A DNA stretch of 23,462 nt from a virus: positions 1-23,462 of the IMG/VR virus record IMGVR_UViG_3300047276_000734. The stretch is one strand, 5' to 3'. A program made the translations under genes and the position numbers. Below the pieces are notes generated by a model. It worked only from the letters and a program-made list of their open reading frames with translations, was not told the DNA's origin and did no database searches. Below are positions 293-19,711 of the stretch, in pieces (position 1 is the stretch's first letter; every line of letters starts with the position of its first letter).

Positions 293-538
293 TCACATTC
301 CGATCAAGGACTTGCCGGCGGTCGTGCGGGTTTTCGTCCCGAGCGGGGACGTGAGGATCGTGCCGCCGATGCCGCCACCGGTGCCGTACGGGTTCTGCGC
401 GTCCGGGCGGCCGGGCGAAAACGCTGTGGGCGTGCCCGCCGGAAGGGCGGCAGCCGGCGGCGGAGTCGGGGCCGGCGGCGGCTCGGGCGGCGGCGGCGGT
501 TTCACCGCGCGCGGCGGGTCGGGGGACAGAAAAGACAT
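293..538 (-). CDS. Proline-rich small phage protein with GTILTSPLG tail
   Basis: This 81-aa protein starts at ATG 538, sharing one base with the TerL stop (TGATG), so it is probably translationally coupled. Residues 7-40 are dominated by Pro and Ala, including PPPPPEPPPAPTPPP. The C-terminal third is Gly/Thr-rich with GGTILTSPLG near residue 58 and ends KSLIGM. From memory, short proteins with a poly-Pro N-terminus and a GTxLTxPxG...KxLLG C-terminus often sit between terminase and portal genes in podoviruses. Their function is not established; a virion-assembly or internal role is inferred from position only. A longer reading from TTG at 541 is possible but less likely. Confidence 0.75.
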   Translation of the reverse strand: MSFLSPDPPRAVKPPPPPEPPPAPTPPPAAALPAGTPTAFSPGRPDAQNPYGTGGGIGGTILTSPLGTKTRTTAGKSLIGM

Positions 539-2043
539 CAAGCGTGCTCCAGTTGCAAGAACTTCGCATCGAACGGGTCGTACTCGCTAACGACCAGCGA
601 ATCCGCGGGCGGGATGTCGCGCGACGCTCGCGAGAAGATCGGATACGCGAAGGTCAGCGCAAGCGCATCGGCCCGGTCGGGCGACGGCAAGCCCCGCTTC
701 TTCATATCCTCCTTCCGCTCCAACTGTATCGCGCCCGTGCCGTTGAAGGAATAGGTCGGGCCGACCAATTCGTCGGACAGGTCCTTGTCATCTTCGATGC
801 AGCCGGTCTTCAGCCAGTCGCGCATCGCGCCCCAAATCTCGGCCCGCTTGTTCGCGTACACGACGTACGGGTCGACCGTGTTGAGCTTGTCGGGCTTCGC
901 GCCGAACTGCACGTCCCAAACGTGGAGGTTCATCCGCCGAAGCTGGTCGACGACGCCGCCGCCGACACCCGTACCGTCAACGAAGATCGCCTCGGCATGA
1001 TGTTCGCGCGCGAGCGTCGCGACGCGCGTAGCGAGTTGGACGGTGTCGGCCCCCCGAAGCATGATCTTCGCAATGCTGCGCGCGTCCCGGCCGCGACGGA
1101 AGGTGATGCACGAGGCGTCGTCGCCGAACCGGGCAACGTCTACGCCCATTACAAGAGGCTCCGCGGCGGTCAGTCGCCAATCGGGCAGCTCGCGCACCCG
1201 CGCCTCGTCCACGTCCCACTGCGAGATGAAGGAGGTAACGGCATGCCGCGGGAACTCGCCCAACACGCGCACGCGGACGAAGTCGCTGTCCAAGCCTTCG
1301 GCCTGGATCATGCCCTCGATCCACTTCTTGTCGCTGAAGCTGACCGTCCGGCTGTCGACCGACCGCGGCGTCCACATCCCCGCGTACCGGCCGCCGGGGA
1401 AACACTCCTTAAAGCGACCCTCGGGGAAGTTCGGGTTCCCGAACACAAGGAACAACCGCTCGGTGTTCGCGTCCGTCATACAGCCCTCGGCTGCTTCCCA
1501 AATGACTTCCGGGATGCCGGACGCCTCGTCCATAATGATGAACTGGCGCTTGCCTTGGTTGTGCAGGCCCTGGAACGCGGCCGGGTTGTTCTCGCTCCAC
1601 GGGATCGCGTCTGTCCGCCACGTCAACTTCCGGGCCGGGTCCCGCGAGAACATTGATGTGGCGGTCAGCTCGAACAGGTCCTTGGCGATGAAGTGCTGGA
1701 ACCACTTCGACAGCTCGGGCCACGTTTTCGTTTTGAGCTGCGTGTCGGTGTTGGCCGTGACGATCCCGCGGGTGTCCGGGAACGTCGAGTGCGCCCACAG
1801 GACGATCCACGACACGAACGTGGATTTGCCGACACCGTTGCCCGACTTCGTTGCCTGCCGCACGGCCGCCTCGGGCGACAAACCCCGACCGATCGACAGC
1901 AGTGCTTCCCGCTGCCACACCTCCGGCCCGCTACGCGCCGCCAACGGCCCCGGTTCGCCCCACGGGAACGCCCACATCACGAACCCGAGCGGGTCGTTGG
2001 AGAACCGCCCGAGGTCGTCGATGATCTGGTCGTACTCGGTCAC
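538..2043 (-). CDS. terL: Terminase large subunit (TerL)
   Basis: This 501-aa DNA-packaging motor has both expected domains. In the ATPase half, Walker A is SGNGVGKST (67-75), Walker B is FIIMDEA (168-174), and an FGNPNFPEGRF coupling region lies near 201-211. In the RNase-H-like nuclease half, acidic residues sit at GVDVARFGDD (D302), FVDGTGVGGG (D356) and SPDRADAL (D456/D459). Full length and all metal-binding positions look intact. It cuts concatemeric DNA and pumps it through the portal. The start is GTG at 2043, one base after the stop of the 32-aa membrane peptide. No SD is obvious there, so coupling to upstream translation is likely. Gene order TerS, peptide, TerL, Pro-rich, portal supports the call. 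Confidence 0.96.
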   Translation of the reverse strand: MTEYDQIIDDLGRFSNDPLGFVMWAFPWGEPGPLAARSGPEVWQREALLSIGRGLSPEAAVRQATKSGNGVGKSTFVSWIVLWAHSTFPDTRGIVTANTDTQLKTKTWPELSKWFQHFIAKDLFELTATSMFSRDPARKLTWRTDAIPWSENNPAAFQGLHNQGKRQFIIMDEASGIPEVIWEAAEGCMTDANTERLFLVFGNPNFPEGRFKECFPGGRYAGMWTPRSVDSRTVSFSDKKWIEGMIQAEGLDSDFVRVRVLGEFPRHAVTSFISQWDVDEARVRELPDWRLTAAEPLVMGVDVARFGDDASCITFRRGRDARSIAKIMLRGADTVQLATRVATLAREHHAEAIFVDGTGVGGGVVDQLRRMNLHVWDVQFGAKPDKLNTVDPYVVYANKRAEIWGAMRDWLKTGCIEDDKDLSDELVGPTYSFNGTGAIQLERKEDMKKRGLPSPDRADALALTFAYPIFSRASRDIPPADSLVVSEYDPFDAKFLQLEHA

Positions 2044-2044
2044 G

Positions 2045-2143
2045 CTACGTGATCCAGATAACGAGGCAGCCGAGCAGCACGACGAGGACTACCCACGCGA
2101 ACAGCGTCCGGTTCGAGATTTCGTCGTCCGGGTGCCACGTCAT
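2045..2143 (-). CDS. 32-aa single-pass membrane peptide between TerS and TerL
   Basis: This short frame reads MTWHPDDEISNRTLFAW followed by a hydrophobic run VVLVVLLGCLVIW and a stop. Its ATG overlaps the TerS stop (ATGA), and it ends one base before the TerL GTG, so it fills the gap exactly. That packing is the main argument that it is real. The charged start and one roughly 15-residue hydrophobic segment suggest an N-out/C-in or pinholin-like peptide, but no family is recognised. It could be a lysis accessory, or simply a spacer ORF that keeps ribosomes moving into TerL. Confidence 0.62.
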   Translation of the reverse strand: MTWHPDDEISNRTLFAWVVLVVLLGCLVIWIT

Positions 2144-2709
2144 TCGACAATCTCCGCCTCGACGGCCTCGATCTGCTTGGCACGCGCAGCTCGCTCGCGG
2201 GCGGCTTCCAGCCGCGAACCTAGATCGACGTTGACGTTGACGTTCGTTGACTTCGTCTGCGGGCCGTGGCCGGTCCGGTCGGCGGTCAACTTCATGATCT
2301 CGGTCAGCTCGGTGTTGTCGAACTTGTCCGGGTCCTCAACCAGCCGCTCATGCAGGATGGTGGTGGCGTCGAGATGCAAGTCGGCCATCGCTTGCGCGCC
2401 ATCACGCCACGCCGCGTCGACGTGTGTCCGGTAGTGCTCGATCAGCTCGCGGAACGCCGGGTCGGCGCGAAGCACACTGATCCGCGACTGGTCGTAGCCG
2501 GTGACGGCCGCCGCCTCGACGTTCTTCATCCCGCTCGCGAGGCATCGGGCGAGGGCGTGATGGCGCTCGCGCAACCGCGTGACGGTCGGGGCCGGTGTGC
2601 TCTCCCGAGCTTCGCCGAGCGACGCGAGATCGTCGGCCGTCAGCTCCCGCTCAATCTCATAGTCGACCGGCACCGCCGCCCGTCCGACCGTACGCAACCC
2701 CAGGCCCAT
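2140..2709 (-). CDS. terS: Terminase small subunit (TerS-like)
   Basis: This 189-aa protein lies directly before TerL. After a variable first 40 residues comes RLRERHHALARCLASGMKN (45-63), then an HTH-like stretch in which an Ala-rich helix precedes GYDQSRISVLRADPAF (71-86). This is the usual DNA-recognition pattern of phage small terminases that bind pac or cos and hand DNA to TerL. The middle (about 88-140) is predicted helical, as expected for oligomerisation. The C-terminus holds a VNVNVD strand and a charged helix EAARERAARAKQIEAVEAE. The start is ATG 2709, with GGAG about nine bases upstream. Sequence identity to named TerS families cannot be checked here; position and HTH make the call likely. 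Confidence 0.82.
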   Translation of the reverse strand: MGLGLRTVGRAAVPVDYEIERELTADDLASLGEARESTPAPTVTRLRERHHALARCLASGMKNVEAAAVTGYDQSRISVLRADPAFRELIEHYRTHVDAAWRDGAQAMADLHLDATTILHERLVEDPDKFDNTELTEIMKLTADRTGHGPQTKSTNVNVNVDLGSRLEAARERAARAKQIEAVEAEIVE

Positions 2710-2714
2710 GCCAC

Positions 2715-3023
2715 CTACTCCGGCACATACAACGTCATTGTGAGAGCAAAGTACGACGTGCCGTTGAAGAAGTACAGGCCGGGATTGTCCGCGTCGTTCT
2801 CATCCTCGACGACGTAGATGAAACGGGGACTGCCGCCGGCAACGATCTCGGCGAAGGTCGCCGCCGTCTCCAGCGCCGGGAACGTGTAAGCGGTGTCGGC
2901 CCCGGCCACGCCCGCGTCGGTCACGATCACCCGACCCGGACCGTCAAGGATATACCCGGTCCCGGCCCCGCTGATCCGGCCCTTGACCGGGACCAGTTCG
3001 TCCTCGTTGATGTTAAGTGGCAT
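2715..3023 (-). CDS. Small virion-associated protein, unknown function
   Basis: This 102-aa protein has a strong start: ATG 3023 with GGAGG six bases upstream. It looks all-beta: short alternating hydrophobic stretches with Gly and Asp (ISGAGTGYILDGPGRVIVTDAG at 17-38), then PRFIYVVEDENDADNPG and LYFFNGTSYFALTM. The segment YVVEDE...PGLYFFNGTSYF resembles the short beta modules in tail-fibre tips and collar proteins. No family is recognised. It lies between the tail-protein block and TerS, so a small structural or fibre-accessory role is inferred from context. No signal peptide or membrane segment is visible. Confidence 0.72.
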   Translation of the reverse strand: MPLNINEDELVPVKGRISGAGTGYILDGPGRVIVTDAGVAGADTAYTFPALETAATFAEIVAGGSPRFIYVVEDENDADNPGLYFFNGTSYFALTMTLYVPE

Positions 3024-3032
3024 CCCGGCCTC

Positions 3033-3662
3033 CTACGCCGCCAACAACTCAATGGAGTACCCAAGTCCGCGCGCGGTCGAAGTCTGCGTTACCGCGATCG
3101 ACGAAAACGACGAGACCGGCCCGTTAGTGTCGCACAGCCGCATGCTGCGCGATCCGACACTGAAGTTACTCTCGCGCGTAGTCAAGCCGGCCGGCTCGGG
3201 CTGCGTCGCGGTCAGGTCGATGACGTACCCGCCAACAACCCACGACGTTGCTGCCGCGAGCGACTTGGCGGGGATAGTGCAAGTGCCCGAGTTGCCGTTG
3301 TTGTTCGTGTCGAAGTCGCCGATCGGCGTGCCGCTTGCGACGCATCCGCGGTAGCTGGCGTACCGGAAGAAAACGCCCGAGCCCCAACCACCGACCGAGC
3401 CGCTGTCGTTCGACGTAAGCGCCCGGCGCCACGCCAACCGCAGAGCAATTGCCGATCCGGACGACGCCCCGGTGATGTTGGTGAAACCGGTCGAGGTTGT
3501 CGGAGGTGCTGGTCCGCTGTCGTCCCACGCGATCGCGACGATGATGTCGTCCTCGACGTATGTTAGCGTCGCGAGGGAATTGGAACTACTGACGAAGCTG
3601 ATTGCGCCGGCCGGGGCCTCGGCAATTCGGGCGGGGCGCGGGAAGATCAGGCCGGGAATCAT
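3033..3662 (-). CDS. Putative tail-associated virion protein
   Basis: This 209-aa protein starts at ATG 3662, overlapping the fibre stop (ATGA). A longer open frame to 3929 reads antisense-like Arg-rich sequence and is not used. The sequence is rich in Ser, Thr, Ala and Gly. It has SNSLATLTYVEDDIIVAIAWDD near residues 22-43, followed by PTTSTGFTNITGASSGSA. This is the pattern of phage virion proteins with a jelly-roll-like fold ('DDIIV...W...P..P.GWT.I'), which I recognise only loosely. Two Cys pairs occur in the second half. It is probably a tail or fibre accessory protein, because it follows two receptor-binding genes with overlapping translation. The exact role is unknown. Confidence 0.72.
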   Translation of the reverse strand: MIPGLIFPRPARIAEAPAGAISFVSSSNSLATLTYVEDDIIVAIAWDDSGPAPPTTSTGFTNITGASSGSAIALRLAWRRALTSNDSGSVGGWGSGVFFRYASYRGCVASGTPIGDFDTNNNGNSGTCTIPAKSLAAATSWVVGGYVIDLTATQPEPAGLTTRESNFSVGSRSMRLCDTNGPVSSFSSIAVTQTSTARGLGYSIELLAA

Positions 3663-5587
3663 ATGTCGTACGCGATCGGGAAAATGACGATGACAGTCGA
3701 GCTGTGCGCGTACCAGCCGACAAGGTCGGTCTTCCCGGCGCCGGTCGACAGCGTCACGGCCGCAGTGTTCTTGAAGTTCGAGGCCCAGGTCGGCACCCGG
3801 CTGCCCGTGGCGTCTTGGGTGATCGCCATGACCCCGCCCGTGCCCGCTTTGACGCTGGTCGGATTCGAGAACTGGCGGTTGCCACCCAACGTCACCGACA
3901 CATTCGGCCACGCCGTCGACATATCCCACGCGATATTCGCGCCGTCCGTCAGCGCAACGTACGCGGCAGCCGCGACCATGTCATCGAAATATGGGACGCG
4001 GTCGGCCGTGTTGGCGCGGATCGCGGTAACGTCGGCCAGCGCCAGTTCGAGAGTGGTCCGCATGGCGGACACGGTCGTGTCGTCGAGCAGGCCGCGGGCA
4101 GCCGAAGTCAGCGTAGTGGTTGAGAAAGTGTCGCTGCCGGTCGCGTAGATCAGGGCGTCGGCGCTGGTTATGACGGCGGCCAGGGCCGTCAGCGTGGCGT
4201 CGAGCGGCTGGTAGACGGCGGACAGGCCGCCTACCTTCGTGGTGACGTAGGCGGTGGTGGCGATCTGCGTGGTGTTGGTCGCGTCCGCGGCGGTCGGGGC
4301 TGTGGGCGTGCCGGTCAGCGCGGGCGACGCGAGCGGCGCCTTCAGCGCGAGGTCGCTCGTCAGGTCAGTAATGTCCGACTGCGCATGCGTGTGCGAGGCC
4401 GCCGCGGCCGAGATCGTACTGCGGACGGCCGAAGCGTCCGTATCGTCGAGGATCGACCGGGCGAACGAAGTGATGGGCGCGAGCGCGAGAACGGTCGACC
4501 CGTTCCAATAGATCATGCGGTCGGCCGTTGGCGTCAGCCCGGCGATACCGGCGAGCGTGGCGTCGTACGCCTGTACGTTCGAACCGATGGCGAGGCCGAG
4601 GGTTGTGCGCTGCGCGCTCGCGTCCGCGTCGTCAAGCAAAGCACGGCCGGCGGCCGTCAGGTCGGCCAGCGCCCACGTCCCCGCGCCGGTCGCGTACAGC
4701 ATCTTGTTCGCGGCGGAAGTCAGGGCCGCGATCGCGGTCAGGTCGGTGTCGAGTGGTTGCTTCGCAGCGAGATCGCTCGTCAGGTCCGTGATGTCGCTTT
4801 GCGCATGCGTGTGCGACGCGGCGGCAGCGCCGAGCGCAGTACGCGCGGCGGCGGCATCTCCTCCGGCGATCTCCCGAATGCCCGTACCGTCAGTCGTGTC
4901 GAAAACGACCAGCGCGCCTTCGGTCGTTGTCCCGCCCGGCCCGACTACGTCGCCGCTACCACTACCACTCGCGCCCGTCGCCCCGGTGGCGCCACGGATG
5001 TCGACGGCATCGCCAATCGTCGCGGTCATCCCGGCGGCGCCGACATACTCGTCGATGTTGTCGGTCGGCGTGCTGCCCTCGCCGCCGACGTAGTCGACTA
5101 GCTGGAGAACTCGCCGGTTGCCGTCCGTCGCGACCGCGAAGACCGGGGACCACCCGCGGTCGCCATCGGAACCGTCGGAACCATTGGTTCCGTTTGTGCC
5201 ATCGGCACCATCAGCGCCATCCGCGCCGGCAACGCCCTGAAGCCCGGTCGCGCCCGTCGCCCCGCGAATGTCGACCGCGTCCTCGATCGCGTCTACAAGC
5301 CCGCCCGCCCCGACATATTTGGGCGAGGCCGGTTCGCTGCCTGACCCGCCGAAGTAGTCAACGACCTGGAGGACCCGGCGCTCGTTGTCGCTGACAACCG
5401 CCACCTCGGGCGTCCAGCCGTTCGTGCCATCAGCCCCGTCACCGCCCGCCTGCGCCAGCACAGACTCGCCGCCGTTGCTGTCCCTCAAGTACCACTCGCC
5501 GTCCGTGTTCTTGAAGACGACGACCCGGCCCTTGCCAACGATCTCGGCCAGAACGTTGACGACGTTGACTTTCGTGTCGTCGGTCAC
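3659..5587 (-). CDS. Tail fibre protein with collagen-like and repeated modules
   Basis: The start chosen is GTG 5587, which overlaps the tailspike stop (GTGA) and gives 642 aa; TTG 5602 is an alternative. The N-terminal part carries a duplicated unit: GW(T/S)PxxAV...RRVLQ(V/L)VDY...DAVDIRGATGATG at about 57-115 and 145-205. The copies are separated by a collagen-like Gly-X-Y stretch (about 116-145). From 245 on come fibre repeats: SHTHAQSDITDLTSDLA occurs twice, LTxxxRxLLDDxxxSAxRxTL at least three times, and one LASPALTGTPTAPTA unit is present. The C-terminus is a beta-rich cap. Such proteins trimerise into the host-binding fibre. With the tailspike upstream, the phage carries two adhesion proteins. 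Confidence 0.9.
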   Translation of the reverse strand: MTDDTKVNVVNVLAEIVGKGRVVVFKNTDGEWYLRDSNGGESVLAQAGGDGADGTNGWTPEVAVVSDNERRVLQVVDYFGGSGSEPASPKYVGAGGLVDAIEDAVDIRGATGATGLQGVAGADGADGADGTNGTNGSDGSDGDRGWSPVFAVATDGNRRVLQLVDYVGGEGSTPTDNIDEYVGAAGMTATIGDAVDIRGATGATGASGSGSGDVVGPGGTTTEGALVVFDTTDGTGIREIAGGDAAAARTALGAAAASHTHAQSDITDLTSDLAAKQPLDTDLTAIAALTSAANKMLYATGAGTWALADLTAAGRALLDDADASAQRTTLGLAIGSNVQAYDATLAGIAGLTPTADRMIYWNGSTVLALAPITSFARSILDDTDASAVRSTISAAAASHTHAQSDITDLTSDLALKAPLASPALTGTPTAPTAADATNTTQIATTAYVTTKVGGLSAVYQPLDATLTALAAVITSADALIYATGSDTFSTTTLTSAARGLLDDTTVSAMRTTLELALADVTAIRANTADRVPYFDDMVAAAAYVALTDGANIAWDMSTAWPNVSVTLGGNRQFSNPTSVKAGTGGVMAITQDATGSRVPTWASNFKNTAAVTLSTGAGKTDLVGWYAHSSTVIVIFPIAYDI

Positions 5588-8094
5588 TTCACGAATACCC
5601 AAGTGTTGGTGGCGACTTTGGTCAGTTCGCCGCCCTGACCGGAGGTGACGGTCAGGTTGTTGGCGACGACGGTGACACCAGAGCCGGCCGCGATCGTCCA
5701 GGTGTTGGCGGAGGCGTTGACGTTGACGACCTTGATGGTGGCGCCGAGCGGAAATGCGACCGAGGAGTTGGGCGGGACGGTCAGCGTGCCGCCGCCGGAG
5801 CGGTCGAGCGAGATGACGTTGCCGTTGTCGGTCATCGCCAGCGTTCGCGTTGCCGCGGTCACGGTGCTGACGGTCGCCTGCGGGTAGGTTGAGAAGTTGA
5901 AGCCCCCGGCCCGCCCGCCGAGGTTGCGGACCTGCGCCTCGGTCGCGGCCGTCGCGTCGAGGTCAACGCCTCCGTCCATGATGTAGGTGCCGTCCACGAA
6001 GAACTTGTCCGCCCCGGTGTTGAGGTGGAGGCCGGGGCCGATCAGGGACTGGTTCGTGTTCGAGTTGAGGGACTTGTTGGCCGAGATGATGCCGCCGTGT
6101 AGAAAGAACCCTTTGGTCGAGGTGCCCTTCAACAGGATGCCGGCGGACAGCAGGGTCGCGTTCTTGCCCGCCGAGCCCGCGGCCGTGCTGCTCGCGGTGA
6201 TGACAGCGATGTGCGTCTGCGTCGTCCGCGAGAAGATCGTGTAGCCGCCGGGCGCGACGGGGGTGCTGCTGGTCGTGGCCGTGACCGACGAGTTGCCGAT
6301 CGCGAAGTACATGGTCACCGAACCCTTGTTCTGGATGACCATGTTGTTGGTTCCGGACGAGCCGGTGTTGAAGGCGTACCGCGAGGACGTGGTGGTGGCC
6401 GTGAAGGAGACGCCCGAACCAGGGTCGATGTCGCCTTCGCGCGCGGTCGAGTAGCCGGCGACCATCGGCTCGACGATCCGGTTGCGGCCGGACCAGATTA
6501 CGAAGCCCTCGCGCTTGCACGTCAGCGCGTTGCACAGGAGGAAGAGGCCGGCGCCGCCGTACAGGTCGGTCGGGCTGTTCCCCGCCGGCACACCGGGGTA
6601 GGTCCCGTCCGGGTTGTCGCCGATGTCCCAGCCGTTCGTGCTCACGCCGTTGGCTTGGCACAAGATCATGTACAGCTTCTCGTACCCGCTGATGTCGTAC
6701 GTGCGCTTGTTGGCTTCGGCCGAGATGTTGAAGAAGAAGTTGCCGGCGCACATCTGCTTGCCGGTTTCGTCGCCGTCGCGGTTCGCCCCTTGTCTATTCG
6801 GGGCGTGCTGGAGGCGGAGGGCGTTCTCGCCCTGCCGGAGCTGCATGCTTTCGCACCGGATGGTGCTGGCGCCGTAGGACCAGAAGCAGACGAAGTTGGG
6901 CGAGTACTCTTCGGTCAGGGACTCGGCTTCGCCGTCGCTATCCTCGCCAACCTGCTTGCCGTTGATGAAGATGCCGCGGAACTTCACCGACGTGCCCTTG
7001 GACTTGGGTTGGACGGTCACACCGCTGCCGTCGCGGTCGTAGAACTGGGTCTCCTTGCCGACATTGCCGTCGAGAAGCGTTTGGGTGCTGCGGACGAGGA
7101 TGCCGAAGCCCCAGTCGCCCGGCGACGGCGCGTCCGTCCCCATCCCGCTCGACGTACCGGTGAAGCCACGCAGGTAGCAGTCCTGCAAGATGCCGCTGCG
7201 CGCGACGCCGAAGTCAATTCCGTTGTAAAGGTTGAAGCCGGAGATGTTCTGCCAGAAGAAGTTGTCGATCCACCGCGCATCGATCATCACGCCCGCGGTC
7301 GGGGTGACGGACGACGAGTGGGCGAAGTTGAGGTTCGAGATATGGACGTTCTTGACGCCGTACGCGAACTTCAGCAGGTCGTGGTTGCCGACGATCCCGC
7401 GGATGGTTGAGGGGCCGGTGGCGCCTTCGGCCCGGCTGACGCCGATCAGCGAGACGTTCGAGGGGACGTAGATGGGCTCGTTGATCGGGTAGTTGCCGCG
7501 GAGCCAGCAGATCGCGCCGCCCCGGTTCTCGGCCTCGAGGAACATGGCCTGAAGGGCGTCGACGACGAGGGAGGCGTTCGCGTCCGGCTCGGCCTGCGTG
7601 ATGCCGTACTGCTCAGGGGTCAGGACCGGGAGGGTGCCGCCCCCACCGCCCTCGCCCGCGTTCGCCAGCACGAAGGCCGTCGTGGCGAGCTGGGTGTTGT
7701 TCGTGCCGGGCTCGGCGGTCGGCCCTACGGGCACGCCCGTAAAGGAGGGGCTGTCCAGCGGGGCCAGGGCCTGCTCGGCAGCCACCGCGCGGGCGATCTC
7801 GGCGGCCAGGGCGCTGGCGGTTGCGAAATTGGCCGGGTCGATCCCGCGGACAAGGTCCGCGTCGAGCCCCGAGCCCGCGCCGTCGACCGTTTTCAGCGCC
7901 GCGAGAATTTCGGCGGCGGTCATCGTCCCGCCGCCGTCCCCGCCCTCAATTGTCAGATCGCCCGTGACGAAGTGGCGGTTCGGCGTCGCGGTACGCTGCA
8001 CCCAGTTGTCGGGCTCGGGCCGTTGAACAACCCGCCGGAAATCGGACGGGCGGAACCGATCGTACCAGTTACTGCCGCTGTCGTCGTTGGACAC
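5584..8094 (-). CDS. Tailspike with pectate-lyase-like beta-helix
   Basis: This 836-aa protein starts at GTG 8094, with GGAGG seven bases upstream. Residues 1-50 look like a virion-anchoring N-terminus. A fibre repeat LDSPSFTGVPVGPTA with NTQLATTAFVLAN follows near 113-145. From about 155 the pattern is that of Pectate_lyase_3-type right-handed beta-helices: VLTPEQYGITQAEPDANA, VVDALQAMF, GGAICWLRGNYPI, IYVPSNVSLIGVSRAEG, then many short strands such as NVHISNLNF and SGILQDCYLRGF. The last 100 residues (TLTVPPNSSVAFPLGATIKV...VATNTWVFVK) match a C-terminal trimer cap shared by many fibres. It probably binds or depolymerises surface polysaccharide. Catalytic residues cannot be assigned from sequence alone. 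Confidence 0.9.
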   Translation of the reverse strand: MSNDDSGSNWYDRFRPSDFRRVVQRPEPDNWVQRTATPNRHFVTGDLTIEGGDGGGTMTAAEILAALKTVDGAGSGLDADLVRGIDPANFATASALAAEIARAVAAEQALAPLDSPSFTGVPVGPTAEPGTNNTQLATTAFVLANAGEGGGGGTLPVLTPEQYGITQAEPDANASLVVDALQAMFLEAENRGGAICWLRGNYPINEPIYVPSNVSLIGVSRAEGATGPSTIRGIVGNHDLLKFAYGVKNVHISNLNFAHSSSVTPTAGVMIDARWIDNFFWQNISGFNLYNGIDFGVARSGILQDCYLRGFTGTSSGMGTDAPSPGDWGFGILVRSTQTLLDGNVGKETQFYDRDGSGVTVQPKSKGTSVKFRGIFINGKQVGEDSDGEAESLTEEYSPNFVCFWSYGASTIRCESMQLRQGENALRLQHAPNRQGANRDGDETGKQMCAGNFFFNISAEANKRTYDISGYEKLYMILCQANGVSTNGWDIGDNPDGTYPGVPAGNSPTDLYGGAGLFLLCNALTCKREGFVIWSGRNRIVEPMVAGYSTAREGDIDPGSGVSFTATTTSSRYAFNTGSSGTNNMVIQNKGSVTMYFAIGNSSVTATTSSTPVAPGGYTIFSRTTQTHIAVITASSTAAGSAGKNATLLSAGILLKGTSTKGFFLHGGIISANKSLNSNTNQSLIGPGLHLNTGADKFFVDGTYIMDGGVDLDATAATEAQVRNLGGRAGGFNFSTYPQATVSTVTAATRTLAMTDNGNVISLDRSGGGTLTVPPNSSVAFPLGATIKVVNVNASANTWTIAAGSGVTVVANNLTVTSGQGGELTKVATNTWVFVK

Positions 8095-8542: not shown

Positions 8543-8602
8543 GCCCCACAATTTTCGCGGCCGGCCGGGGTGTTGCCCGCGCGCCACGGACTTTGGTCCT
8601 AA

Positions 8603-8631
8603 CATCCGCATAAGAGGCGGATGAAGTCCGC
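8603..8631. repeat. Overlapping alternative hairpins
   Basis: CATCCGC (8603-8609) pairs perfectly with GCGGATG (8617-8623) over a 7-base loop. The right arm can instead pair as GCGGA (8617-8621) with TCCGC (8627-8631). The two folds exclude each other. A smaller GGAC-TTTG-GTCC hairpin precedes them at 8588-8599. Lying upstream of the leftward promoter, they may be operator half-sites. Confidence 0.5.
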
Positions 8632-8726
8632 ACGTTCATGCCAAGATACCCTGCATGTGATCAAGACATTGTTACCCGGACCACGCCGGGGGCGGTGCCG
8701 GCGAAGGCCGGGGGGCCGCGAGGCGG

Positions 8727-8744
8727 GAGAAAGCATGCTTTCTC
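8727..8744. promoter_or_regulatory. 18-bp perfect palindrome, candidate operator
   Basis: GAGAAAGCATGCTTTCTC is a perfect dyad with no central gap. Uninterrupted dyads of this length are typical binding sites for dimeric HTH repressors. It lies in the divergent control region, about 190 bases from the leftward promoter. No second full copy was seen in the window. Confidence 0.5.
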
Positions 8745-8980
8745 GGTTGCACGATCTGGCCTGTCGGACAATCTTTTCGCCCAGAGGTTGCAATTCGGGC
8801 CGGAAATGGGAATGCCGTCCTAGGCCCGTTCCCGCTTTGTTCCGAGATCGTTGCGCAACCGATCCGACACTTGACCCGGCTAACGTCCTGAAATCGTTAT
8901 GGAATACCAGTTTCCCCGGCGAGCCCCATGTGCCAGTGCCGACCTCGGTCCCGACTCTTAATTCCCACTTTTCTTCTGTA

Positions 8981-8995
8981 TTTTTTTTTTTTTTT
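8981..8995 (+). repeat. Homopolymeric T15 tract
   Basis: Fifteen consecutive T residues occur in an AT-rich patch (about 8957-9001) of an otherwise strongly GC-rich region. No stable stem lies directly upstream, so it is a poor intrinsic terminator. It may be a DNA-unwinding element, a bent or stiff tract in the control region, or a slippage-prone site. Confidence 0.85.
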
Positions 8996-9065
8996 ACAAG
9001 AGTAGAGCGGAGAAGGGGAGGGGCCTCGACACGAGATAGGGTCGCTGCATTGGGACCGTGGGGCT

Positions 9066-9243
9066 CACTGGGGAATCTACGATTCCCTAAGAGAATCAAG
9101 GGCTTACGGGCGCAGCCCGTCGTCTCGCCCCCGGAACGACTGCGGGCACCGTCCCGCATTCTGGGACGGCATTGGGGAATCTCGTCTCGCAGCCCGCCGC
9201 GCCGAGGCGGCACTGGCCCATTGAGGATCACAAACGCGTGATC
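9066..9243. repeat. Cluster of short perfect inverted repeats and a 13-bp direct repeat
   Basis: Four perfect stems are packed here: GGGAATC/GATTCCC (9071-9087, loop 3), ACGGGC/GCCCGT (9106-9120, loop 3), CCGTCCC/GGGACGG (9149-9169, loop 7) and GATCAC/GTGATC (9226-9243, loop 6). CA(C/T)TGGGGAATCT occurs twice (9066-9078 and 9170-9182) with one mismatch. The last dyad lies 15 bases upstream of the rightward promoter -35, a position suited to an operator. Confidence 0.6.
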
Positions 9244-9258
9244 GGCCTCGACCGGCGC

Positions 9259-9287
9259 TTGACACGGCTCGCCGAGGCTGCTCCCAT
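9259..9287 (+). promoter_or_regulatory. Rightward early promoter
   Basis: CTTGACACG contains a perfect -35 TTGACA (9259-9264). At the same 17-bp spacing as in the two other rightward promoters, TGCT leads into a weak -10 (TCCCAT, 9282-9287). Predicted transcription begins near 9294 and runs into the first early gene at 9338. The shared CTTGACACG and TGCT blocks support it; the poor -10 lowers confidence. Confidence 0.5.
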
Positions 9288-9337
9288 ACGCATCACGGCC
9301 GCACCGATTTGCCGCCGCAACACAGGGGACCGAACCA

Positions 9338-9538
9338 ATGCTCGATAAGAACGGCAAGCCCATCGAGATCGGCGCGCGAGTGCTCGTGAAGGGCCGACTC
9401 GTTGGCCGCGTCCACAAGACCGAGAACGTGGTCGACCGCATCATGCACTGGCCCCGGCCGGGTTGGATCATCGTGCGCGGCGCCGGTTATGGTGAGTGGC
9501 GCGGCAAGGCCAGTCTCGTCGAGACGTTGGGGGGTTGA
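9338..9538 (+). CDS. Small early protein, unknown
   Basis: This 66-aa protein is the first gene after the rightward promoter. ATG 9338 is preceded by ACAGGGGACCGAACC, the shared leader type of this region. It begins MLDKNGKPIEIGARVLVKGR, followed by a VGRV...NVV repeat of short strands and PGWIIVRG. This small SH3/KOW-like beta-barrel pattern is common in short phage proteins of unknown role. It is basic, with no membrane segment. As the first transcribed early gene it may be a host-takeover factor, but that is only inference. Confidence 0.72.
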   Translation: MLDKNGKPIEIGARVLVKGRLVGRVHKTENVVDRIMHWPRPGWIIVRGAGYGEWRGKASLVETLGG

Positions 9539-9541
9539 CCA

Positions 9542-9769
9542 ATGGCCTACATCTCCCGCGATCCGTTCGCCCGCACGACGCTCAACCGCATCGTCGTCCA
9601 CGCTAACGGCGCGACCTGCGCATGGTGTGGGGGCAACCGCCAGCACCGAGGCCGCGCCCTAACCACGTTGTTCCGATACGTCTCGACGACGGACAGCATC
9701 TATGGGCGCGCCGTCACGCATAAGGGCCTCTTCTGCTCGAAGTCGTGTCACGACAGCTACCACGGATGA
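9542..9769 (+). CDS. Zn-ribbon small phage protein
   Basis: This 75-aa protein begins MAYISRDPFARTTLNRIVV. It carries CAWCGG (residues 23-28) and FCSKSCHDSYH (64-74), a Cys2...Cys2/His arrangement expected to bind one zinc. Between them, LTTLFRYVSTTD and GLFC suggest a small beta ribbon. I recognise the SRDPFAR...CAWCG...FCS..C pattern from uncharacterised small proteins of alphaproteobacterial phages. It starts three bases after the previous stop, with a GGGG tract upstream, so the two are co-expressed. A nucleic-acid or protein-binding role is likely but unproven. Confidence 0.8.
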   Translation: MAYISRDPFARTTLNRIVVHANGATCAWCGGNRQHRGRALTTLFRYVSTTDSIYGRAVTHKGLFCSKSCHDSYHG

Positions 9770-9773
9770 CGCT

Positions 9774-9866
9774 ATGATTTTCCATTGCAGCCTAACGAAC
9801 ACCACCAAGAAATGGTCGTGCGGCGTATGGTTCACACGAATTGAAGGTCGGTGGGTTAAAGACTAA
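9774..9866 (+). CDS. 30-aa putative peptide
   Basis: A short frame starts five bases after the preceding gene and reads MIFHCSLTNTTKKW, then a CGVWFTRIEGRWVKD end. The aromatic, amphipathic composition is typical of phage micro-ORFs, and it fills the gap up to the first repeat element. Its ribosome-binding site is weak (only GGA), so reality is uncertain. Confidence 0.4.
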   Translation: MIFHCSLTNTTKKWSCGVWFTRIEGRWVKD

Positions 9867-9870
9867 CGCC

Positions 9871-9952
9871 GAAACGCGCGCAAGCGCGCGTCCGATCGCT
9901 ACGCCGCTATGCGACCGCCGATGATGGCTCGCGGCACACAAGGGAACCCGCA
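9871..9952 (+). repeat. Intergenic structured element, copy A
   Basis: GAA is followed by a 7-bp hairpin ACGCGCG-CAAG-CGCGCGT (9874-9891). TCC and a second hairpin follow, whose loop contains ACGCCGCTA (9901-9909) and whose stem pairs 9894-9900 with 9911-9917 (one A-C mismatch). Then come GATG, GGC..GCGGCAC and the AAGGGA ribosome-binding site. Copy B lies at 10441-10516. The two differ in stem bases by compensatory changes while linker and loop bases are kept, which indicates selection for structure. Confidence 0.75.
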
Positions 9953-10165
9953 ATGTCTCGTCACGATCTTCTCGCCCTCGCCGATGCCTGTGCGGCCGAC
10001 ACGGCCCGTTCGCAAGCTCGGCTCGCCCGCGACATGGCTGCTGTCGCGGCGACCTTCACCGCCCGCATGCGCTGGCATCGCGCTGCCGCCCGGGCCGACC
10101 GCGCCGCGCGCCGAGCTCTCGTCTGCCGCGACCTTCGCCTGTCCATTCTCGGCGCGGGGGTCTGA
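9953..10165 (+). CDS. Small Ala/Arg-rich helical protein
   Basis: ATG 9953 follows AAGGGA at eight bases, so this 70-aa frame is preferred over the longer overlapping frame from 9909. The sequence (MSRHDLLALADACAADTARS...) is nearly all helix-forming Ala, Arg, Leu and Asp, with repeated A-R-A-D patterns. It is probably a short amphipathic, basic, possibly nucleic-acid-binding protein. No family is recognised. Confidence 0.6.
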   Translation: MSRHDLLALADACAADTARSQARLARDMAAVAATFTARMRWHRAAARADRAARRALVCRDLRLSILGAGV

Positions 10166-10207
10166 GCCCATGGAAAAGGCGACGCACGCTGCTCACGGGG
10201 AATGATC

Positions 10208-10438
10208 ATGAACGCCGCACAACGCAAGCAAATCGAACGTGTCGAGGCCCTGCTGTCTGAGGCCCGCTGCATTCTCGAGGAACTACGCGACGACCTACAA
10301 GCCGCGTTCGATGAAAAGTCCGAACGCTGGCAAGAAAGCGAGCGAGGCGAAGCGGCGCAAGAAGAAATTGACAATCTCGAGAACGCTTGCGCTAGCGTCG
10401 AGGAAATCGAAGGTTCGCTCGCGGACTTTCACGCCTAG
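10208..10438 (+). CDS. Small acidic coiled-coil protein
   Basis: The start is ATG 10208 rather than 10202, because GGGGAATGATC gives the same SD-to-ATG distance as neighbouring leaders. The 76-aa product MNAAQRKQIERVEALLSEAR... is highly charged and helical, with heptad-like spacing through RVEALL, ILEELRDDL, EEIDNLENA and VEEIEGSL. A dimeric coiled coil is expected. It ends just before element B. Function unknown; small acidic coiled coils in early phage regions often act as adaptors or inhibitors. Confidence 0.72.
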   Translation: MNAAQRKQIERVEALLSEARCILEELRDDLQAAFDEKSERWQESERGEAAQEEIDNLENACASVEEIEGSLADFHA

Positions 10439-10440
10439 CC

Positions 10441-10516
10441 GAAACGGCGCGCTTGCGCCGTCCAAGCCCGACGCCGCTACGGCTTGCTGACGATGGCGAG
10501 CGGCACCGAGGGACAA
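10441..10516 (+). repeat. Intergenic structured element, copy B
   Basis: This is the second copy of the element at 9871. GAA precedes hairpin ACGGCGC-GCTT-GCGCCGT (10444-10461). TCC and a second perfect stem follow, CAAGCC (10463-10468) with GGCTTG (10481-10486), whose loop holds ACGCCGCTA (10471-10479). GACGATGGC..GCGGCAC and AGGGA precede ATG 10517. Four base pairs of the first stem are flipped relative to copy A. Confidence 0.75.
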
Positions 10517-10741
10517 ATGCCTGACATCAATGCGACCGAGTACTCCGGTTATCATCCGTTCTGCGACGATGCCGGAAGCGAACACGGCTCGTTCGAAGTG
10601 TTCTACTTCGCGGACAACGGGGAAGATGAAAGCGCCGGTTGGTACTGGCATGCATGCTTCCCCGGTTGCATCCCCGATGGCGATCCATCCGGCCCGTTCG
10701 TCACGTCTCGTGAAGCTTACGACGACGCACAGGGGTTCTGA
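10517..10741 (+). CDS. Small acidic phage protein (GWYW...CFPGC...SGPF type)
   Basis: This 74-aa protein starts at ATG 10517 behind GAGGGA. It is acidic and aromatic: EVFYFADNGEDESAGWYWHACFPGC (about 29-53), then DGDPSGPFVTSREAYDDAQ (56-74). The WYW.ACFPGC.PDG.PSGPF...EA..DA pattern recurs in short proteins of many phages. It is uncharacterised and thought to be a compact alpha/beta fold. It has two Cys close together, but no full metal site is visible. It is co-transcribed with its neighbours in the early region. Confidence 0.78.
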   Translation: MPDINATEYSGYHPFCDDAGSEHGSFEVFYFADNGEDESAGWYWHACFPGCIPDGDPSGPFVTSREAYDDAQGF

Positions 10742-10744
10742 GCC

Positions 10745-10900
10745 ATGCCGATCACCATTCGCTCGCTTCCCCGCCCAACCGTCTCGCTCGCCAAGCCCGC
10801 GCCGCGCCGAGACCGCAAGCGCCCCTTCGACCCGGCCGAACTTCTCGACCCGGACTTTGACAATCTCGGCGGGGAGCTTGCTCCCACGCAGCTGCGTTGA
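10745..10900 (+). CDS. 51-aa basic/proline-rich peptide
   Basis: The frame from ATG 10745, three bases after the previous stop, reads MPITIRSLPRPTVSLAKPAP and continues with a basic RRDRKRPF segment and an acidic ELLDPDFDNL segment. The mixed charge and Pro content suggest a disordered adaptor peptide. No strong SD is seen, so coupling to the preceding stop is assumed. Function unknown. Confidence 0.55.
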   Translation: MPITIRSLPRPTVSLAKPAPRRDRKRPFDPAELLDPDFDNLGGELAPTQLR

Positions 10901-10910
10901 GGACGCCGCC

Positions 10911-11087
10911 ATGCTACCCAAATTCTACGCATGCGGTTGCTGCGGCGGATACCACAACATAAACCTGCCCGACTGGGTTGATTGCCGCGACGACAGCAAC
11001 CGCTTCACGGCAGAGCAACTAGACGACCTTTACGGTGTCGGGCTATGGGAAGAAGTGCAAGACCCGCACATTGATGAGACGGAATAG
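10911..11087 (+). CDS. 58-aa Cys-rich small phage protein
   Basis: ATG 10911 follows GAGG at eight bases. The product begins MLPKFYACGCCGGYHNINLPDWVDC and continues DDSNRFTAEQLDDLYGVGLWEE. The CxCCGxxH...WVDC..D.NRFT...LD..YG pattern is familiar from uncharacterised short phage proteins. C8, C10, C11 and His15 could bind a metal. It lies in an early gene string and is probably a host-interaction protein; no function is known. Confidence 0.72.
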   Translation: MLPKFYACGCCGGYHNINLPDWVDCRDDSNRFTAEQLDDLYGVGLWEEVQDPHIDETE

Positions 11088-11126
11088 CCCGCGGCGTAGC
11101 CGCACAACAGCACAAGGGAACCGACC
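11088..11126 (+). promoter_or_regulatory. Leader with GCGGC-GTA-GCCGC hairpin and shared RBS block
   Basis: A 5-bp hairpin directly follows the preceding stop. Then comes CACAAGGGAACCGACC before ATG 11127. The RBS block nearly matches those before 9953 and 11851. Confidence 0.6.
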
Positions 11127-11453
11127 ATGCCCGCAACTGTAAAAATTCCCGACCCCATCGACCCGCGCAACATGCCTCCGGGCGAATATGTTGCGTTGCG
11201 CCCCGCCGATTATGAAAAGTTGTGCATAGCTGCCGGGAAGCGCGAGCGCGCCGCACTCACCAAGGATCGCGGGACCCGCTGCGAGATGCAGCACCGGCAT
11301 TTCGCCACCATTGCGGCGATCATTCGTGAAATGGCGAACGGACAAGACGAGAACTTGCGCGGCATCGTGGCATTCGCCTTCGCCCGCGAGCTCGCCGCGA
11401 CCAACCCCCGCTTTGACCGCGACCGCTTCCTCCGCGCGTGCGGCGTCATCTGA
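11127..11453 (+). CDS. Small phage protein, unknown
   Basis: This 108-aa protein starts at ATG 11127 behind AAGGGAACC. The N-terminus MPATVKIPDPIDPRNMPPGE is extended and Pro-rich. The rest is helical: YVALRPADYEKLCIAAGKRE (21-40), HRHFATIAAIIREMAN (56-71) and ELAATNPRFDRDRFLRACGV (88-107). The C-terminal NP.FDRDRFL.ACG motif is common in short proteins of alphaproteobacterial phages and resembles small dimeric HTH-like folds. It is soluble; function unknown. Confidence 0.78.
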   Translation: MPATVKIPDPIDPRNMPPGEYVALRPADYEKLCIAAGKRERAALTKDRGTRCEMQHRHFATIAAIIREMANGQDENLRGIVAFAFARELAATNPRFDRDRFLRACGVI

Positions 11454-11463
11454 GGATCAGACC

Positions 11464-12249
11464 ATGGCATACCTGGCAATCACGACGCGCTTTCTCGGCC
11501 CGACCAACTATCGCGGCGCCCGCATCAAAGCGACCATTCCCGATTATGCGCGCGGCGACACACGCAAGCGACCGTCCGTCACGCTCGGATGGGACCATGC
11601 GCTCACAGCCGAGGGGAACCACGCGGCAGCCGCCCGCGCCCTCGCGCTCAAACTCGGGTGGACAGGCGATTATCATCTCGGCGACAACGGGGAGAGCTAC
11701 ATTTTCGTCCGCGTTAGCGAATACGACGACGCGCCGTTCTTCTCGATCATCAAAGAGACGTTCAGCCGCCGATCTGACGCATCGCAGAGGGGCGCTTGCC
11801 GCCCCTCGACAATGCGCCAAGCCCGGTCGCAGATCACAGGGGAACCGATCATGTGTGAAGTCAACGTCTCTTGCCTACTAGACGAAGTCGATCCTTTCGA
11901 CCTGTCGCATAGCGCGGCCGAAGCCGGTTCACCAAACAAATGGTCTGATGCACTAGAAATCGCCGAAGGCCGCACGCTTCCCGGTCTCGACGTGGACAAC
12001 GCCAAGGAGTATTTCGCGGGCTTTGGCGCATGGTCGCGTGACGAAATCGCCGCGTGGTCGGAGCAGGAAGTCGTCGCACTCGTTCTTCAGTTCGCGGCCG
12101 GCGACTTGCGTGAGGCGCAATCGTGCTGTCCGGGCGACGGTATCGGCGATATCGATTGGGATGATTTCCGTGACCAAGCGGAAGCCGGCCGGATCGGAGG
12201 GCGCATCTATGCCGCCAATGGCGAGCTTTTCATCTCGATTTGCGATTGA
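11464..12249 (+). CDS. Apparent fusion of two small phage proteins in one frame
   Basis: ATG 11464 follows GAGGA. Residues 1-90 (MAYLAITTRFLGPTNYRGAR..., then LGWDHALTAEGNHAAAA) are a recognisable short phage protein type that normally ends after about 90-105 residues. Here the frame stays open through what looks like an intergenic leader (residues about 103-129): a perfect 8-bp hairpin at 11787-11807 and a standard RBS block. It then continues into a second protein with its own ATG at 11851. A TGA at 11775 lies in another frame, so one upstream indel would restore a stop. Either the genes fused through stop loss, or the assembly carries an indel. Length is 261 aa as it stands. Confidence 0.6.
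   Translation: MAYLAITTRFLGPTNYRGARIKATIPDYARGDTRKRPSVTLGWDHALTAEGNHAAAARALALKLGWTGDYHLGDNGESYIFVRVSEYDDAPFFSIIKETFSRRSDASQRGACRPSTMRQARSQITGEPIMCEVNVSCLLDEVDPFDLSHSAAEAGSPNKWSDALEIAEGRTLPGLDVDNAKEYFAGFGAWSRDEIAAWSEQEVVALVLQFAAGDLREAQSCCPGDGIGDIDWDDFRDQAEAGRIGGRIYAANGELFISICD
11787..11850 (+). promoter_or_regulatory. Hairpin plus RBS block inside an open frame
   Basis: GAGGGGCG (11787-11794) pairs perfectly with CGCCCCTC (11800-11807) around loop CTTGC. CACAGGGGAACCGATC follows just before ATG 11851. This is the spacer architecture found between other genes here, yet it is translated in the frame from 11464. Confidence 0.65.
11851..12249 (+). CDS. Conserved phage protein from internal start
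   Basis: This 132-aa product comes from ATG 11851, in frame with 11464 and preceded by a strong GGGGA site. It starts MCEVNVSCLLDEVDPFDLSH. Its core, WSDALEIAEGRTLPGLDVDN then YFAGFGAWSRDEIAAWSEQE, with an end GRIGGRIYAANGELFISI, matches a conserved small-protein pattern I associate with phages and prophages. The strong RBS suggests it is made independently even if the upstream frame reads into it. Function unknown. Confidence 0.65.
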   Translation: MCEVNVSCLLDEVDPFDLSHSAAEAGSPNKWSDALEIAEGRTLPGLDVDNAKEYFAGFGAWSRDEIAAWSEQEVVALVLQFAAGDLREAQSCCPGDGIGDIDWDDFRDQAEAGRIGGRIYAANGELFISICD

Positions 12250-19157: not shown

Positions 19158-19233
19158 GGACCCGTCGTCTAAAGGTTAGGATTGCCGACTTTCACTCGGC
19201 AGGTGCCGGGTTCGAGTCCCGCCGGGTCCACCA
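19158..19233 (+). tRNA. tRNA-Glu (anticodon TTC)
   Basis: The acceptor stem is GGACCCG (19158-19164) with CGGGTCC (19223-19229), followed by discriminator A and an encoded CCA. The anticodon arm is GCCGA-CTTTCAC-TCGGC, with anticodon TTC. The T arm has GGGTTCGAGTCCC, with a C-C mismatch at its first pair. The D arm, GTCTAAAGGTTAGGAT, matches the usual tRNA-Glu pattern. Length is 76 with CCA. It probably supplements the host for GAA codons. Confidence 0.93.
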
Positions 19234-19236
19234 ACT

Positions 19237-19311
19237 TCTCCGATCGTCCAACTGGTAGGACATCGGATTTTGATTCCGAAGATGCTCGTTCGAACCGGGC
19301 TCGGAGAACCA
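19237..19311 (+). tRNA. tRNA-Gln (anticodon TTG)
   Basis: The acceptor stem is TCTCCGA (19237-19243) with TCGGAGA (19301-19307), followed by A and an encoded CCA ending at 19311. The anticodon arm is TCGGA-TTTTGAT-TCCGA, anticodon TTG. The T loop GTTCGAA is standard; its stem has weak pairs. It begins three bases after tRNA-Glu, so they are cotranscribed. The ATG of the next gene starts at the very next base, and GGAG in its 3' acceptor strand is positioned as that gene's ribosome-binding site. Confidence 0.92.
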
Positions 19312-19512: not shown

Positions 19513-19711
19513 ATTTGTCTTTGATTTCACCGATGAGAACGGTGTCCGAATATTGTTCTTCGGACACGATAGCGGCGTCGTCACCGTTTCAAGCGGACAT
19601 TCGTCTGAGGATGAAATTCCGACTAGCCGCGTTGTTAGTTTAAACGTAGCGCAAGCTAACGAGCTGGCGGCGGAACTACTGAAGTGGAGCAAGTCCCGTG
19701 CCGAAACGTAA
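19505..19711 (+). CDS. Small beta-rich protein, unknown
   Basis: ATG 19505 overlaps the previous gene by eight bases, with AAGGAACC upstream. The 68-aa product begins MNEFVFDFTDENGVRILFFG, then HDSGVVTVSSGHSSEDE and a helix VAQANELAAELLKWSK. The strands-then-helix arrangement and its AT-richer DNA set it apart from its neighbours. Function unknown. Confidence 0.68.
   Translation: MNEFVFDFTDENGVRILFFGHDSGVVTVSSGHSSEDEIPTSRVVSLNVAQANELAAELLKWSKSRAET

Follow-up and report, generated by a model that had tools for sequence, protein, structure and literature searches.

Two intergenic elements of a virus contig, at 9868..9935 and 10438..10504 of the window (the entire 23,462-nt stretch that was analysed), are on sequence grounds type II (GSC-order) hammerhead ribozymes that are pseudoknotted and carry an inserted U (U-form). 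Type II hammerhead ribozymes are a known family of small self-cutting RNAs that are common in phages. We consider it very likely that the two copies are predicted self-cutters of this kind and would divide a polycistronic phage transcript into gene-length units. Their identity, anatomy, covariation and intercistronic placement are established in this analysis, and an anonymous repeated spacer can now be read as a named RNA that is putatively catalytic and whose cut site can be predicted.

Both copies contain the same modules in the same order: a GCC strand of stem II, GAAA, the stem III hairpin, GUC, the stem I hairpin, CYGANGA, the inserted U, GGC and a GCGGC tail. It is the succession of GAAA, a closed hairpin, GUC, a second closed hairpin and CUGANGA that identifies them as type II hammerheads. 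Stems I and III are closed by loops and stem II is open in each copy, as the circular order of the type demands. The conserved core (GAAA, A15.1-U16.1, the NUH cleavage position and CUGANGA) is complete in copy 2 and complete except for C4 in copy 1. The pseudoknot between loop I and the sequence after stem II is present in both, as GCCGC/GCGGC. Coordinates of the ribozymes, their parts and the neighbouring open reading frames are collected in Table 1.

Table 1. Ribozyme copies, their structural parts and adjacent open reading frames (window positions)
Feature	Position	Strand	Remarks
Small ORF, 30 aa	9774..9866	+	ends just upstream of copy 1; no family match
Copy 1, hammerhead (type II, pseudoknotted, U-form)	9868..9935	+	phage-copy model 39.8 bits, E 8.4e-10; RF02276 20.0 bits
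Copy 1 stem II 5′ strand GCC	9868..9870	+	pairs with GGC 9926-9928; 1 nt past TAA 9864-9866
Copy 1 core G12 A13 A14	9871..9873	+	
Copy 1 stem III hairpin	9874..9891	+	ACGCGCG/CGCGCGT, 7 bp, loop CAAG; A15.1-U16.1 closing
Copy 1 predicted cleavage site	9892..9893	+	3′ of C17 (9892), by homology
Copy 1 stem I hairpin	9893..9917	+	CGATCGC/GCGACCG, one A-C mismatch; loop 9900-9910, GCCGC at 9903-9907
Copy 1 core CCGAUGA + inserted U	9918..9925	+	core 9918-9924, C4 replaces U4; U at 9925
Copy 1 pseudoknot 3′ strand GCGGC	9931..9935	+	pairs with loop I GCCGC
ORF, 70 aa, first gene past copy 1	9953..10165	+	AAGGGAA before it; no family match above cut-off
ORF, 78 aa, between ribozymes	10202..10438	+	stop codon overlaps copy 2; phrog_4068, unknown function, E 1.7e-11
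Copy 2, hammerhead (type II, pseudoknotted, U-form)	10438..10504	+	phage-copy model 47.4 bits, E 5.6e-12; RF02276 28.1 bits
Copy 2 stem II 5′ strand GCC	10438..10440	+	pairs with GGC 10495-10497; its G is the final base of TAG 10436-10438
Copy 2 stem III hairpin	10444..10461	+	ACGGCGC/GCGCCGT, 7 bp, loop GCTT
Copy 2 predicted cleavage site	10462..10463	+	3′ of C17 (10462), by homology
Copy 2 stem I hairpin	10463..10486	+	CAAGCC/GGCTTG; loop 10469-10480, GCCGC at 10473-10477
Copy 2 core CUGACGA + inserted U	10487..10494	+	core 10487-10493, canonical CUGANGA; U at 10494
Copy 2 pseudoknot 3′ strand GCGGC	10500..10504	+	
ORF, 74 aa, downstream of copy 2	10517..10741	+	GAGGGA before it; homologues L144-L149 without ribozyme

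A strict hammerhead descriptor matched the + strand of the window twice, whereas it found nothing on the − strand or in any of 60 first-order Markov simulations. The plain folding energy of the elements was no better than that of shuffled sequences, so folding by itself would have overlooked them. When Rfam was run permissively on 9800-10600, RF02276 (Hammerhead_II) was the best family for both copies and every core block was aligned. Copy 2 reached 28.1 bits (E 0.0019 over 4227 families) and copy 1 reached 20.0, both short of the gathering threshold of 37 bits, which is a curation cut-off and not a structural feature. At the default threshold Rfam reported two tRNAs only in the whole window and passed over both of these GC-rich phage copies; with such scores, standard annotation would miss them. 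In its alignment to these copies the RF02276 consensus skips the inserted U and counts “ug” among the insertions in the U-form, and its structure line shows C11.1 unpaired. This treatment of C11.1 and “ug” probably lowers their score. A covariance model trained on 47 further phage copies, with the window's two excluded, gave exactly two matches in the window (47.4 and 39.8 bits), the training sequences having been gathered with a pattern that the window copies match too, so that stem II was fixed by construction, as was part of the core.

The further copies came from a gapped pattern search of IMG/VR that returned at least 120 stretches; requiring both stems gave 118 distinct sequences among the matches listed, including the two from the window. 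Across the 47-copy alignment, stems I and III and the pseudoknot covary, and controls with slid partners collapse. Pairing is possible in 89.5% of cells compared with 66.3% after shuffling, and 223 cells carry double changes compared with 74, a number that none of 500 shuffles reached. The paired fraction is highest in stem III (95%), followed by stem I (89%) and the pseudoknot (77%). Stem II is invariant here because the search pattern fixed it; a neighbouring copy that Rfam found (L049:1905-1971) has GUC/GAC in place of GCC/GGC. Rfam itself gave 35 Hammerhead_II matches above gathering in 15 collected loci, many of them U-form with the same anatomy. On one phage contig fragment (L084, 171-5341) seven or more type II hammerheads exceed the gathering score, some with the inserted U and some without it. 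A looser pattern applied to bacterial genome contigs gave at least 119 stretches, and among the 80 of these searched with the model the top score was 18 bits (E 0.03), with no clear ribozyme.

A preliminary description of this DNA had reported two elements, at 9871-9952 and 10441-10516, that align end to end, and the sequence is as it claimed. Its first hairpin, which is stem III, has 7 bp and a 4-nt loop in both copies with exactly four pairs reversed, and its second, stem I, differs in the stem and keeps the loop ACGCCGCTA. The location was right, with the limits shifted: the functional unit starts 3 nt earlier, at the GCC of stem II, and stops at GCGGC (9935 and 10504), and the AGGGA and ATG that had been counted as parts of the element belong to the following gene instead. 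The expectation of a covarying structured RNA family with more copies in other phages was borne out by the kind of test it had suggested, a covariance model; the pattern search yielded over 100 additional copies from viral contigs, and these covary strongly in stems I and III and in the pseudoknot. Its structural inference was good and its functional label was not: the “movable leader or spacer” is indeed separable from the genes (homologues of the gene after copy 2 lack the ribozyme) and we noted no sign of active transposition, but the element is predicted to be a hammerhead of the self-cleaving type.

The pseudoknot accounts for the conserved loop. Loop I is the same in both copies because its GCCGC pairs with the GCGGC just 3′ of stem II, and type II hammerheads are described as making their tertiary contact in this way (PMC3088659). 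A third exact ACGCCGCTA on the − strand (19570-19578) lacks any hammerhead context and is a chance 9-mer.

Two variable features were noted. The family is described with stem II (G10.1-C11.1) immediately beside A9, and a single U is inserted between A9 and the GGC of stem II in both window copies and, by construction, in all pattern matches. Ribozymes without it adjoin U-form copies on one contig (L084), and the U-form sisters L116, L039 and L034 score above the Rfam gathering cut-off; the U-form therefore appears to be a sub-form of the known family. Insertions beside CUGANGA in known alignments are stated to be no longer than one or two nucleotides (PMC10085705), so a single extra nucleotide does not go beyond what is known. 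The other feature is core position 4, which was left free in the pattern: U occurs in 105 and C in 13 of the 118 distinct listed copies, copy 1 being among the 13, and a purine in none. The U4C change reportedly lowers activity considerably in vitro, and a natural U4C hammerhead is still active enough in vivo for viroid infectivity (PMC3088659). The pyrimidine-only rule at this position and the tight link between the first strand of the ribozyme and the upstream stop codon are the two testable general points of the survey.

The record, a virus contig of 23.5 kb, has its terminase and tail-fibre genes on the − strand (538-8094), and its helicase, exonuclease and HNH genes read from the + strand. 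Both ribozymes are located within the run of small + strand genes that opens the second gene block. The DNA is that of a tailed phage, with the ribozymes between co-directional small early genes. No terminator-like sites were found at 8600-11500. The 74-aa gene at 10517-10741 is conserved (47-55%) in six other viral contigs and has no Pfam or PHROG match.

The same placement recurs in the survey. The stop codon of an open frame lies within 15 nt upstream in 93 of 112 copies compared with 12% of control positions, and an upstream stop within 15 nt is combined with an RBS-motif start within 60 nt downstream in 80 of 112 compared with 2.2% of random positions; these controls are random positions and not random intergenic gaps, so intergenic location and tight phage gene packing give part of the effect. 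At most of the 112 loci the upstream stop runs into, or directly adjoins, the first strand of stem II (mode −1 to +2 nt). Because most copies sit between a stop codon and the next ribosome-binding site, ribozyme cleavage probably separates neighbouring cistrons.

In the proposed mechanism, the transcript would fold into stems I, II and III around the CYGANGA/GAAA core, the GCCGC of loop I would dock on the GCGGC tail, and the RNA would cut itself 3′ of C17 (9892/9893 and 10462/10463) during transcription. Hammerhead chemistry leaves a 2′,3′-cyclic phosphate on the upstream piece and a 5′-OH on the downstream piece. The upstream message would accordingly end in the stem III hairpin right past its stop codon, with the cyclic phosphate, and the downstream message would begin with a 5′-hydroxyl and a stem I/pseudoknot leader of ~ 54-60 nt that includes the ribosome-binding site. 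One cut would fall ahead of the gene pair 9953-10438 and another behind it, generating gene-length units. We infer that cleavage would take place in this phage, that both new ends would be shielded from ribonucleases and that the phage would benefit.

Stem II starts in or right beside the stop codon of the preceding gene (at 10438 it shares the G of a TAG; most of the 93 stop-flanked copies are within 3 nt), and this raises the idea that translation times the cut. While terminating there, a ribosome would occupy stem II, GAAA and the base of stem III and so keep the RNA from folding; cleavage would have to wait until upstream translation thins, and the position-4 pyrimidine and the inserted U would tune a slower core. 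We regard this elaboration as improbable. Copy 1, with its C4 and its stem I mismatch, may be a slow cleaver. One could go further and, in view of its lower score too, take it for a drifting relic that cleaves poorly and serves as a hairpin spacer only, leaving copy 2 as the working ribozyme, and the in vitro effect of U4C (PMC3088659) points the same way. In copy 1, however, neither stem III nor the pseudoknot is broken, and the C at position 4 is shared with the other C4 copies at a site where A and G never occur and where the viroid hammerhead tolerates it in vivo (PMC3088659), so that a relic is unlikely.

It is far harder to sustain the functional view of the preliminary description, in which the elements are non-catalytic translation leaders or mRNA-stability hairpins. 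They do lie ahead of ribosome-binding sites and start codons, and their hairpins are GC-rich, but the unpaired nucleotides that are invariant in all copies are the catalytic residues of the hammerhead at the correct junctions, and the conservation of the loop is accounted for by the pseudoknot. A very low probability is what we give this explanation, and a slightly lower one still to a REP- or MITE-like DNA repeat that moves by transposition. The latter would fit copies that precede two unrelated genes and homologues of the downstream gene that lack the element. The copies, however, differ at most stem positions and yet pair, which fits selection on RNA and not recent copying, and related phages have single copies in differing gene contexts.

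As hammerheads, the window copies share with RF02276 the order GAAA, stem III, GUC, stem I, CUGANGA, stem II, the pseudoknot between loop I and the tail, and an intercistronic setting in phages or prophages. They differ from it in the extra U between A9 and stem II, a 3-bp GCC/GGC stem II, a 2-nt link before the tail and sub-gathering scores, and copy 1 also in its C4. In prophages, published type II hammerheads are found on either side of single genes or short blocks, and tandem arrays of Agrobacterium tumefaciens, Azorhizobium caulinodans and Clostridium scindens are among those described; three tandem arrays cleaved themselves in vitro, and the Agrobacterium array did so in E. coli too (Perreault et al, 2011; PMC3088659). 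The window likewise has several ribozymes around single genes or short blocks, with a pseudoknot replacing loop-loop contacts; the genes are different, and the phage has no close named relative. A crystallised pseudoknot hammerhead (PDB 8YDC), with a C3-G8 pair and a sheared A9-G12 pair, has the same core and also makes its tertiary contact through a pseudoknot (PMC11300833). That RNA is designed and bimolecular, its pseudoknot stands in for helix II and it has a helix IV; it lacks the 3-bp GCC/GGC stem II with inserted U that is read in the window copies.

The ribozyme is thus of a known kind, newly recognised in a phage without a close named relative in the collection searched: the entire window, compared as DNA with phage records, gave no match, and the phage's terminase is at most 45% identical to those of named phages. 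One related contig (L302; terminase 53% and helicase 52% identical to those of the window) has one ribozyme, which has the loop I ACGCCGC of the window and a GCGGC tail and starts 1 nt past a stop codon. It is on the same strand as the helicase gene and, like the window copies, has its place between that gene and the terminase gene; the genes flanking it do not match the neighbours of the window ribozymes. Another (L118, helicase 45%) has one ribozyme between helicase and exonuclease. Homologues of the neighbouring genes (L122-L149) had no ribozyme in the DNA examined, the best model score being 11.4 bits (E 0.85), and Rfam, run on 11 loci, gave no match. The differing contexts in L302 and L118, together with the ribozyme-free homologues of the gene after copy 2 (L144-L149), indicate that the ribozyme is not bound to one gene.

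Elsewhere in the window, the early gene block includes adjacent tRNA genes for Glu (ttc) and Gln (ttg) at 19158-19311. The long stretch that separates the divergent gene blocks contains repeats of CACTGGGGAATCT / CATTGGGGAATCT at 9066-9182, and this repeat stretch is possibly a control region.
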